This document shows, piece by piece, positions 2,796-6,191 of a stretch of DNA of 64,000 nucleotides. Below the pieces are notes generated by a model. It was not told the origin of the DNA and ran no database searches. It saw nothing but the letters and a program-made list of their open reading frames with translations. The stretch's first letter is position 1. The number at the start of each line of letters is the position of its first letter. Origin of the DNA: Thermodesulfovibrionales bacterium (lineage in GTDB: Bacteria; Nitrospirota; Thermodesulfovibrionia; Thermodesulfovibrionales; Dissulfurispiraceae); assembly GCA_020062545.1 (NCBI GenBank), contig JAGUWD010000003.1, positions 124,001 to 188,000 of the forward strand. The letters are read 5' to 3'. Position numbers and translations under genes: made by a program.

Positions 2796-2878
2796 TTTCT
2801 AATCCCTGCAACTGGGGTTTACTTTTTTTATTGTCTTATGCTACAAAAATTAGCGATTGTTAAGGAGTTGTGAAGGAC

Positions 2879-3181
2879 ATGACTATCGGGATGCTTATTA
2901 CAACCGACAAATACAGGGATGATATAGTGGGCATCACAGAGGCAGCAGTTGGCAGAGGACATAGGGTTATTATCTTTTTCATGGATGAGGGCTGCCGTCT
3001 GGTAGCAGACAAAAAGATTGCGTCTCTTAAGGAAAATGGCGGTGTTTCTATGAGCCTTTGTGATTATAACCGCAAGAAAATGGGGCTTTTGGATAAAGAT
3101 ATTCCGGAGGGAATTACATGCGGAAGCCAGTATGACAATGCGGTTATGAACAGGGAATCGGATAAAGTGATAGTATTTTAG
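2879..3181 (+). CDS. DsrE-family sulfur-relay protein
   Basis: About 100 residues. The TIGMLITTDKY start, alternating hydrophobic beta strands and helices, and VIIFFMDEGCRLV match the DsrE/DsrF-like fold, whose members carry sulfane sulfur or act as small cytoplasmic redox proteins. Two Cys are candidates for persulfide carriage: DEGC (~residue 40) and ITCGSQYDNAV near the C-terminus. A GTG at 2870 is an alternative start; the ATG at 2879 lies 11 nt after AAGGAG. The gene abuts the next reading frame (TAG then ATG) and heads a four-gene run ending in the YeeE-type transporter, which supports a sulfur role. Confidence 0.75.
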   Translation: MTIGMLITTDKYRDDIVGITEAAVGRGHRVIIFFMDEGCRLVADKKIASLKENGGVSMSLCDYNRKKMGLLDKDIPEGITCGSQYDNAVMNRESDKVIVF

Positions 3182-3448
3182 ATGAAGAAGATAGCGGTTA
3201 TCGTAAGAGACAGGCAGTCTGAGGCTTTGCGCATGGGCATCGGTCTTTCTATACTTAATGATGTGGATATATACATATTTGACAGAAAACTCGAAGCATC
3301 AGATGATATTTTGTTGAATCTCGAAATGATTAGAGAAATGAGATTAGGTCTTTATACAAATACTGCTTTAAATGAAGGGATTGAGTATCTTTCAACAGAA
3401 GACATTGCGAAAAGGCTTCTAAAATATGATAATATTTTGCCGTATTAA
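3182..3448 (+). CDS. Small DsrE-like protein
   Basis: 88 residues, with the start codon directly after the previous stop. MKKIAVIVRDRQSEALRMG and VDIYIFDRKL show the beta-alpha-beta pattern of a DsrE/DsrF-type domain. No Cys is present, so it is more likely a structural partner in a DsrEFH/TusBCD-like hetero-oligomer than a sulfur carrier. The assignment rests on fold pattern and on the operon with DsrE and YeeE. Confidence 0.55.
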   Translation: MKKIAVIVRDRQSEALRMGIGLSILNDVDIYIFDRKLEASDDILLNLEMIREMRLGLYTNTALNEGIEYLSTEDIAKRLLKYDNILPY

Positions 3449-3450
3449 TA

Positions 3451-3618
3451 ATGAAGATACTCCACATATTGAAGGCAGAGCCCGAAGAAAGTATTAAGAA
3501 GGTAATCGAAGAGCACAGAAAAGAAAATGATGTGGCAGTTATAAATTTGGGAAGCGATAAAGATTACGACCGGATTGTTGGGCTTATAGAGAAGGCTGAT
3601 AAAGTAATCGTCTGGTAG
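3451..3618 (+). CDS. 55-aa DsrH/TusB-like small protein
   Basis: A short gene starting 2 nt after the preceding stop. It runs from MKILHILKAEPEESIKKVIEE to a C-terminal KADKVIVW. The beta-alpha-beta pattern and terminal VIVW resemble truncated DsrH/TusB-type proteins, but Cys is absent. Tight spacing on both sides and the operon context make it likely translated; its role is unknown. A small hairpin (ACAAGCC/GGCTTGT, 3620-3636) follows before the YeeE ribosome-binding site. Confidence 0.55.
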   Translation: MKILHILKAEPEESIKKVIEEHRKENDVAVINLGSDKDYDRIVGLIEKADKVIVW

Positions 3619-3660: not shown

Positions 3661-4752
3661 ATGGAGGGGATACCACAGGCGAGTATTATGGTTATACTCA
3701 GCGGCGTGCTGGTCGGCGTGCTTTTTGGTTTTGTGCTACAGCGCGGCAGATATTGAATGAACTCAGCATTCAGAGACGTGATCTTTGTAAACGATATGAC
3801 TTTGCTGAGGGCATGGCTTTTGGCATTGGTGATTTCTATTATAGGCGCTAACTTTATTGAGGACATTGGACTTATGGGCGCTGATGGACTGAGACGACAG
3901 GCATTTGCCCCTATTGCAGCTATTGTAGGTGGTTATATCTTCGGTCTCGGTATTGTTATGGCTGGCGGATGCGGAAGTGGTGTTTTATATAAGCAAGGCG
4001 AGGGACAATTCGCTGCTACTATAGCCACATTTGGTTTTGGTGTAGGTCTGATTTCAACAATGCATGGTCCGCTAAAACCTGTCAGTCAGTTTTTGAAAAG
4101 TTATAAGGTCTCTATTGGGGAGGGAGAAAATGCTATAACAAGCCCGGCCTTATGGGATGTATTCGGAGGCGGCAATATCAAGTGGATAGTTATAGCCGTG
4201 GTAGCGGCGATAGTCATTCCGGTAGTATTGAAAGGTAAGCCCTTTGCAAAGGGACCCAAGAAAGGCTGGTCATGGTCAGTTGGTGGTGCTCTGATAGGCG
4301 TGGTAGTAGTTCTTGCATGGTGGGCTTCTTATTACTGGGGCGGCCAGGCAAGGGGACTCTCGTTTTCGGGCCCTCTTTCGGACTTTCTTATGTTTGTTTT
4401 AACCGGAAACAGCCAGGCGCCTTTCGATCCGATGTTCAGCATCTTCGGAATTGGTGTAGCAACATGGAGTGCACTTTATGTTATAGGCGTTCCGGTCGGA
4501 GCTTTTTTAAGCGCGAAAGGCCTCGGCGAATTCAAGCTTACGGCACCGAAAGATCCGAACGAACTTGTAAGGGTCTTTTTCGGAGGACTTGTTATGGGTT
4601 TTGGCGGCGCTGTTGCAGGTGGCTGAACTGTCGGCCATGCGCTGACAGGTGTGTCGGCATTATCGCTTCAAAGCATAGTCGCAACAGCATTTATAATCCT
4701 TGGCAACTGGACAATGACTTATTTTATGTTCATAAAGCCGATGAAGGATTAG
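3661..4752 (+). CDS. YeeE/YedE-type transporter with two selenocysteines
   Basis: A single 363-residue protein read through two in-frame TGA codons at 3754-3756 and 4624-4626, ending at TAG 4750-4752. AGGAGG sits 5 nt before the ATG. The first TGA falls in QRGRY-Sec-MNSAFRD and the second in AGG-Sec-TVGHALTG; both are positions where YeeE/YedE proteins carry conserved Cys. A third conserved Cys (GGCGSG, residue 104) is an ordinary TGC. In the thiosulfate importer TsuA three such Cys line the pore and relay the substrate; here two of three become Sec (residues 32 and 322). The protein has roughly nine hydrophobic segments. Each TGA is followed by a SECIS-like hairpin. The substrate is not known: thiosulfate, another sulfur species or selenium are possible. 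Confidence 0.9.
3771..3787 (+). promoter_or_regulatory. Candidate SECIS hairpin for Sec32 of YeeE
   Basis: CAGAGA (3771-3776) pairs with TCTTTG (3782-3787), with one G-U, around a CGTGA loop. Twenty nt separate the TGA from the loop, within the range known for bacterial SECIS elements, which lie inside the coding region and bind SelB. Confidence 0.6.
4641..4658 (+). promoter_or_regulatory. Candidate SECIS hairpin for Sec322 of YeeE
   Basis: GCTGACA pairs with TGTCGGC (7 bp, one G-U) around a GGTG loop that starts 21 nt after the TGA. A G-rich apical loop is typical of bacterial SECIS. A competing hairpin CTGTCGGC/GCTGACAG (4628-4648) overlaps it. Confidence 0.65.
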
Positions 4753-4890: not shown

Positions 4891-5163
4891 ATGAAGAAGA
4901 TACTCGTATTATTAGTCGCTCTCGTATTTGCTCTTGGCGTTGTCGGTCTTAGCTTTGCAGCAGATGTAAAGGGTACTGTTACAAAAGTTGAGGGCAAGAA
5001 GGTAACTGTAAAAGATGATAAGGGCAAGGAGACAACCGTTGAGGTTAAGGACACAGCTGGTGTAAAGGCCGGTGATAAGGTTGAAATCAAGGGCGGCAAG
5101 GTGGTAAAGGAGGCAGCTCCAGCAGCACCTGCAAAGAAGAAAAAGGCTATAGAAGGCTGTTAA
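4891..5163 (+). CDS. Small secreted Lys/Val-rich protein
   Basis: 90 residues with a strong AAAGGAGGTG ribosome-binding site. The signal peptide (MKKILVLLVALVFALGVVG onward) is probably cleaved after SFAA. The mature part is an alternating V/K beta-rich stretch (GTVTKVEGKKVTVKDDKGKE, then VKAGDKVEIKGGKV) resembling a small OB- or SH3-like barrel. It ends in an Ala/Pro/Lys tail and a terminal GC. Periplasmic location is likely; function is unknown. It has its own terminator and follows the YeeE gene by 138 nt, so it may be expressed separately. Confidence 0.75.
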   Translation: MKKILVLLVALVFALGVVGLSFAADVKGTVTKVEGKKVTVKDDKGKETTVEVKDTAGVKAGDKVEIKGGKVVKEAAPAAPAKKKKAIEGC

Positions 5164-5989: not shown

Positions 5990-6029
5990 TTATAAAAAGA
6001 CCTGACCGGTCTCAACATCCCCATGGGTT

Positions 6030-6191
6030 TCAGCCGCCTCCGCCAAAGAGTCCATAAAGGCTCTGAGGATTTAGCTTCAGGATATTGGCGCTTCCGCATT
6101 TAGGACAACTATTGCCTTCTGCATTGTGCATGGCTGATTGACTTATGACAAAGTGGTTGCCGCATGAGAAGCATATATATTCTACTGCCAT
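6030..6191 (-). CDS. 53-aa zinc-ribbon protein
   Basis: A short gene with GGAGGTG 6 nt before its ATG at 6191. The protein begins MAVEYICFSCGNHFVISQ and has a second knuckle CPKCGSANIL: two CxxC pairs 20-25 residues apart, as in FmdB-like regulatory zinc ribbons. It ends in a Gly-rich LFGGGG tail. It is probably cytoplasmic and zinc- or iron-binding. The function is unknown. Confidence 0.8.
   Translation of the reverse strand: MAVEYICFSCGNHFVISQSAMHNAEGNSCPKCGSANILKLNPQSLYGLFGGGG

Follow-up and report, generated by a model that had tools for sequence, protein, structure and literature searches.

A YeeE/TsuA-family transporter gene with in-frame TGA codons, probably selenocysteine, at two of three relay positions in a Nitrospirota genome

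In a 64,000-nucleotide stretch of a Nitrospirota genome (the window), the gene at 3661–4752 on the plus strand encodes a transporter of the YeeE/TsuA family in which in-frame TGA codons take the place of the first and last of the three relay cysteines. Both are almost certainly read as selenocysteine (Sec), judging from sequence comparison across relatives, downstream RNA structure and the gene content of the genome, and this Sec/Cys/Sec form looks new among the sequences and literature consulted. The explanation we favour, at a probability of roughly 0.6, is that the protein would bring in sulfane sulfur or thiosulfate, handled by the selenolates, and feed a sulfur-transfer route of the DsrEFH type. 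Such a transporter would have two Sec residues, each directed separately, and would belong to a candidate bacterial switch, dependent on selenium, between Sec and Cys isoforms of a transporter.

Results

Two in-frame TGA codons at relay positions of a TsuA-type transporter

With TGA taken as selenocysteine, 3661–4752 (+) reads through to a 363-residue product that stops at a TAG (4750–4752); the only ORF listed under table 11 is a 289-aa segment lying between the TGAs, from the ATG after TGA 32. The read-through protein matched PF04143 (Sulf_transp; YeeE/YedE/TsuA) as one full-length domain over residues 28–351 (E 1.8e-72), and StTsuA (6LEO) aligned with residues 12–359 (E 3.3e-47), the structures 6LEP, 8J4C and 8K1R being matched as well. 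In the 6LEO alignment, codons 32, 104 and 322 fall on C22, C91 and C293, with the motif QRGRY-U-MNSAFRD placed at C22, GG-C-GSG at C91 and AGG-U-TVGH at C293. Imported thiosulfate meets C293 first, C91 second and C22 third in StTsuA, where C22 lies at the interface with YeeD (PMC11073785). Because of this alignment, we read the relay here as Sec322 (outer, periplasmic; TGA at 4624–4626, +), Cys104 (middle; 3970–3972, +) and Sec32 (inner, cytoplasmic; TGA at 3754–3756, +), which bears out the set of residues named in the original prediction. Relay geometry was taken from the alignment to solved structures instead of from AlphaFold2, which gave a pLDDT of 44 with 14 homologs.

Scores fell below the cut-offs of the NCBIfam TsuA equivalogs (254.9 bits vs 400, and 159.8 vs 645) and of the YedE selenium-transporter models TIGR04112 (43.1 vs 200 bits) and NF033796 (88.5 vs 350 bits). 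By sequence, then, the transporter is a member of the TsuA/YeeE family to which we give no TsuA equivalog assignment. In comparison with three relatives, pN/pS was 0.03–0.14 before, between and after the TGAs, indicating purifying selection in each segment tested.

A scan of one genome per species yielded 14 relatives, all from Nitrospirota save one contig labelled Bacteroidetes. Both TGAs were present in the twelve full-length ones and the first TGA on one partial contig, and the remaining relative (L020) has TGC at codon 32 and TGA at codon 322. Two wider surveys, which took in 149 genomes from the order and 296 from the phylum and read codons at the aligned positions, raised the number of genomes with both TGAs to 16; one of them (G012) is a single 2.4-Mb contig. 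TGA at codon 322 occurs, besides these 16, in 19 further one-Sec genes, and codon 32 is TGC or TGT in CCU and CCC homologs. The two-Sec frames are free of any other in-frame TGA, TAA or TAG, and TGAs in the family sit only at relay-Cys columns, codon 104 never being TGA but TGC or TGT in each member examined of the phylum sample. Since homologs lacking Sec, like StTsuA, have Cys at columns 32 and 322, the proposal that the two TGAs replace family cysteines holds, and the worry that resequencing might turn TGA into TGC or TGT is covered by the recurrence of TGA in independent assemblies.

Three further observations concern the same family. Met33 is kept in most all-Cys homologs and is an ordinary internal residue there. 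A terminal TGA at alignment position 360 of one all-Cys gene (L115) was considered as a Sec site and rejected; coming right where the match ends, it was taken for the natural stop. Plasmid records gave only partial and distant YeeE matches.

SECIS-type hairpins follow both TGA codons

A SECIS-type hairpin could be drawn after each TGA, the first at 3767–3793 (+) with the loop CGUGA and the second at 4641–4658 (+) with the loop GGUG, the loop G lying in both cases 22 nt after the UGA. In the relatives, the corresponding structures have 10 pairs and the loop CGUGA after UGA 32, and 7 pairs and the loop GGU(G/A) after UGA 322, with the loop G-U 22–24 nt from the UGA at both sites. Pairing was assessed in a fixed-structure test against shuffles that preserve the protein and draw on each gene's own codons, with all-Cys genes as control. 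Two-Sec genes formed 9.69 of 10 pairs at site 32, against 7.93 under the null (z 6.2), and 6.79 of 7 pairs at site 322, against 3.65 (z 10.1); genes with Sec at 322 only had z 12.3 at 322 and z −0.4 at 32, and all-Cys genes had z −1.4 at 32 and 2.1 at 322. The z-scores are somewhat generous, the structures having been drawn from the same sequences, and the all-Cys control is the safer comparison. Moreover, two pairs in each hairpin show compensatory changes, and RNAalifold recovered the hairpin at site 32 as drawn and the one at site 322 less a single pair. In the two-Sec set, no other 13-codon stretch of the gene is as conserved at synonymous positions as codons 31–43 (0.81 vs a mean of 0.43); in the all-Cys set this is not so.

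The published bSECIS model calls for an apical loop of 3–9 nt, an upper stem of 4–16 bp, a G in the first two loop positions, a spacing of 16–37 nt and a minimum free energy of at most −7.5 kcal/mol (PMC13188914). Both sites fit its geometry: site 32 with the loop CGUGA, a 6-bp upper stem and a 20-nt spacing, and site 322 with the loop GGUG, 7 bp and 21 nt. Isolated hairpin 2 also lies within the energy cut-off (−10.6 kcal/mol, z −2.9). Hairpin 1 of the window is weak (−3.6 kcal/mol over 30 nt, −5.8 kcal/mol over 51 nt) and misses the cut-off, although the site-32 hairpin of some relatives, at −8.2 kcal/mol, lies within it; its support is therefore comparative rather than thermodynamic. Single-sequence minimum free energies were uninformative at site 32 (mean z −0.15 vs synonymous shuffles), because single-sequence folds often miss the conserved hairpin. 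The claim of a SECIS-like hairpin after each TGA is thus upheld by covariation and the synonymous null at both sites, and falls short on energy at site 32 of the window.

In two genomes only, a divergent YeeE subfamily (L077, 2431–3393, and L078) has the set Sec32/Cys104/Asp322, and in L077 the TGA is followed by a strong hairpin (z −4.3).

The genome encodes a complete selenocysteine pathway

The source genome (2.62 Mb in 47 contigs, 100% complete) was searched with profiles for the selenocysteine machinery, whose presence had been proposed as a check on the reading. The genes selA, selB, selC (tRNA-Sec, 71.4 bits) and selD were all found, each over its curated cut-off.

Other signs of selenocysteine use and decoding were noted in this genome. 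Outside the window, selD (G000:C19:20916–21830) itself has an in-frame TGA, like other Sec-containing selenophosphate synthetases, and 1.5 kb from the main tRNA-Sec there is a second match over the cut-off (G000:C14:3585–3671, 50.5 bits), which may be another tRNA (Ser or Leu). Within the window, a zinc-ribbon protein of 59 aa is encoded at 6015–6191 (−), and its frame has a TGA six codons before the end (GGGG-U-NPWGC-stop). Its relatives in four genomes (G012, G355, G356 and G148) carry their TGA at the matching position (GGGU[N/S]...C-stop), each followed by a hairpin-like stretch with a GGU-type loop, and by these sequence features the product is probably a small C-terminal selenoprotein.

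Cys and Sec have been exchanged repeatedly at the outer positions

A tree built from 71 members of the family gathers the two-Sec genes, together with L020, into a single group with 99/99 support. A single clade of Sec322 genes was rejected (p-AU 0.0001); in other families of the order, genes with Sec322 turn up again in among all-Cys ones. The tree requires at least seven changes at codon 322 and three at codon 32.

The repeated exchange could be read in another way. In a selenium-replete lineage, TGA and TGC/TGT might be near-neutral alternatives, both residues serving a hydrogen-bond relay and Sec bringing no special transport chemistry. The seven or more switches at codon 322 fit such drift, as do Cys and Sec forms found together in one genome and in close relatives. 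Yet a gain of Sec takes more than the codon, each one needing its hairpin too, and the two hairpins have been kept across 16 genomes under a constraint independent of the protein; nor would a neutral process predict switching at 322 and 32 and never at 104. We regard this reading as unlikely, though slightly less so than the other alternatives. Since a hydrogen-bond relay does not obviously need Sec, repeated Cys/Sec exchange suggests, in our view, covalent or redox sulfane chemistry. Two points favour chemistry over mere guidance of the substrate: the exchange is seen time and again at the mouths but not once in the middle, and a hairpin of its own is required by, and retained with, each Sec. 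The original idea that a selenol could speed the transfer of thiosulfate or persulfide stands as a conjecture.

A second, all-Cys YeeE gene lies elsewhere in the genome (L079, 4783–5868 (−) of G000:C35), next to a LysR regulator that matches the selenium-metabolism model LysR_Sec_metab (NF040786; 318 bits, cut-off 250) and near a YedF gene (TIGR03527) and a split-Soret cytochrome gene. The same LysR–Cys pair was found in G012, G024 and G011. This arrangement suggests that the all-Cys paralog may step in as a backup when selenium is low, under a Sec/Cys switch governed by the selenium-type LysR. The backup idea fails to hold everywhere, since G011 has the LysR-linked Cys paralog and no two-Sec gene was found there.

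Putative sulfur-transfer genes lie upstream of the transporter

Three small genes precede the transporter on the same strand. The first, at 2870–3181 (+), encodes 103 aa from a GTG start, probably the DsrE component of a type II DsrEFH sulfur transferase. Its product gave a weak match to Pfam DsrE (E 0.0078), an ortholog scoring just at the gathering threshold, and its predicted fold, of moderate confidence (pLDDT 58.6), had DsrE-family proteins as its top seven PDB matches, including 2HY5_A (DsrE of DsrEFH) and 2D1P_A, with E-values of 0.0016–0.096 and none below 0.001. Cys64 and Cys84 are conserved in it. The next two genes, at 3182–3448 (+; 88 aa) and 3451–3618 (+; 55 aa), are termed dsrF-like and dsrH-like from their position and size and from their order upstream of yeeE, which is kept in relatives. 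By sequence, the dsrF-like product had no family match and the dsrH-like product no reliable one, and when profiles of the small upstream genes were run against PDB sequences, all matches were spurious; a missing sequence-family match has likewise been reported for DsrEFH type II (PMC13293266). Among 17 two-Sec loci, at least one of the dsrE/F/H-like genes lies upstream in nine and all three in eight, the remaining half or so having none within the stretch examined. No TusA- or TsuB-like partner gene was found adjoining the transporter; elsewhere in the genome there are seven TusA-family matches over the cut-off, and dsrA is present.

Downstream, 4891–5163 (+) encodes a small secreted protein of the ExtJ family (NF040942; 78 bits, cut-off 52.5), a neighbour found at this place in most two-Sec loci. 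A natural Cys version of the locus is seen in genus g5 (L160 and L161), where the order Kup-yeeE-extJ-trmJ is the same, the YeeE is all-Cys and there are no dsrEFH-like genes.

This neighbourhood bears on whether a genuine two-Sec transporter might instead carry a selenium compound, or serve in selenium or tellurium detoxification, a selenium substrate having been put forward in the original prediction. The ExtJ family belongs to a selenite/tellurite operon, YedE relatives have been tied to selenium uptake (PMC5322559), and the Cys paralog of this genome is grouped with selenium-metabolism LysR and YedF genes. Against this, the YedE selenium-transporter models score far under their cut-offs (43 vs 200 and 88.5 vs 350 bits), the nearest models and structures are thiosulfate transporters, and DsrEFH-like sulfur-transfer genes lie upstream of the transporter, here and at about half of the loci; a transporter that needs Sec to import selenium would also seem self-defeating under starvation. 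The suggestion thus gained no direct support, the ExtJ-family gene downstream notwithstanding, and we consider a selenium substrate quite improbable.

Discussion

That the TGA codons are real stops, whether in a pseudogene, through an error in sequencing or in a gene divided among shorter products, is refuted at the level of sequence and now very improbable. The table 11 ORF beginning directly after TGA 32, with Met33 as a usable start, would allow it, but both TGAs recur in 16 genomes, including one assembled as a single contig, in frames without other stops and with pN/pS of 0.03–0.14 in all three segments, Met33 is internal in most all-Cys homologs, and SECIS elements and sel genes are present. 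Genome-wide reassignment of TGA (e.g. to Trp or Gly), although more than one gene of the genome has an in-frame TGA, is virtually dismissed by the restriction of family TGAs to Cys columns, the use of TGA as a stop in some family members, the lack of internal TGA in long neighbouring ORFs of the window and the complete Sec pathway.

Returning to import of sulfane sulfur or thiosulfate, the reading we prefer, the protein would form a nine-helix TsuA-type pore with Sec322 at the periplasmic mouth, Cys104 in the middle and Sec32 at the cytoplasmic mouth, UGA 32 and UGA 322 each being decoded by SelB and tRNA-Sec via its own hairpin some 20 nt downstream. The substrate would be sulfane sulfur in the form of polysulfide, persulfide or thiosulfate. 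The outer selenolate would catch the incoming sulfur, the middle Cys would hand it onward and the inner selenolate would deliver it to a TusA-type carrier, from which it could pass to the DsrEFH-like complex encoded upstream and then to DsrC and the Dsr pathway. Sec may be favoured at both mouths since, at neutral pH, a selenolate is ionised, and since its bonds to sulfur form and break fast. Both sulfane import and clusters of the yeeE-tusA-dsrEFH type II kind have been described (PMC13293266, PMC11582611).

The distances within the pore limit how such a relay could work. The relay cysteines of StTsuA are 8.6 and 6.7 Å apart (PMC11073785, PMC11582611). Movement or a diffusing intermediate would consequently be needed, 6.7–8.6 Å being too far for simple direct hand-over. 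With cysteines about 7–9 Å apart, published work favours a hydrogen-bond relay for the movement of sulfur by YeeE/TsuA-type proteins, while delivery of sulfane sulfur has been proposed for the related SoxT proteins; in E. coli, TsuA depends on TsuB. More tentatively, the pore might be a covalent chalcogen relay in which sulfane sulfur is bound, passed on and released as Se-S intermediates, periplasmic Cys/Sec swaps tune the process and a selenium-regulated all-Cys protein acts as backup, a version we consider possible but doubtful. Were it true, the TsuA family could act as a transmembrane sulfur transferase, beyond a hydrogen-bond channel. The occurrence of Sec at precisely the two outer relay positions, repeatedly so at the periplasmic one, suggests real chemistry on the passing sulfur and makes the nucleophile question testable. 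Such genes are probably under-recorded in sulfur-cycling genomes, because annotation with the standard code breaks them at TGA codons.

The closest known proteins are TsuA of Spirochaeta thermophila (6LEO/6LEP) and YeeE of E. coli, which share with the present transporter the fold family, a full-length alignment, the three relay positions and the motifs around them. They differ in having Cys/Cys/Cys where Sec/Cys/Sec is found here; the present protein, moreover, scores under the TsuA equivalog cut-off (254.9 vs 400), and its gene has no adjoining tsuB or tusA. A one-Sec YeeE/YedE selenoprotein with the motif GUxSG (PF04143, WP_012471001.1) appears in earlier lists (PMC13188914, PMC9312934), although the main texts of these two papers do not mention it by name. 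It is likewise a PF04143 member containing Sec, but, to go by its motif alone, which is what sets it apart, its Sec fits only the middle position (GGCGSG, codon 104), which is Cys here. Several multi-Sec bacterial proteins have also been listed (PMC13188914). Sec at both mouths was not found in the literature searched, which was mostly open-access. The expectation that a two-Sec pore would be unusual stands, accordingly, for the two-mouth form, and has to be tempered by the one-Sec YeeE already on record with Sec in the middle.

The yeeE-tusA-dsrEFH type II (YTD) cluster is known from sulfate reducers, sulfur disproportionators and cable bacteria (PMC13293266, PMC12998232), in papers whose main texts do not mention selenocysteine. 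Our locus resembles it in the placement of yeeE beside dsrE/F/H-like genes, in its Nitrospirota host and in the dsrA of the genome, and differs in lacking an adjoining tusA, and in having dsrEFH-like genes at only about half of the two-Sec loci. Of the three subunits, DsrE is the one supported, by weak profile and fold matches.

For the regulatory side, the nearest parallel is HrsM, a LysR-type protein that controls the switch between Sec and Cys isoforms in Methanococcus maripaludis (PMC11097638). The present case differs in being bacterial, in concerning a transporter whose regulation is putative, and in the LysR–Cys pair of G011, a genome where no two-Sec gene was found. The two systems are alike in that one genome has both isoforms, Sec and Cys, and in that the Cys gene adjoins a LysR regulator belonging to the selenium-metabolism family.
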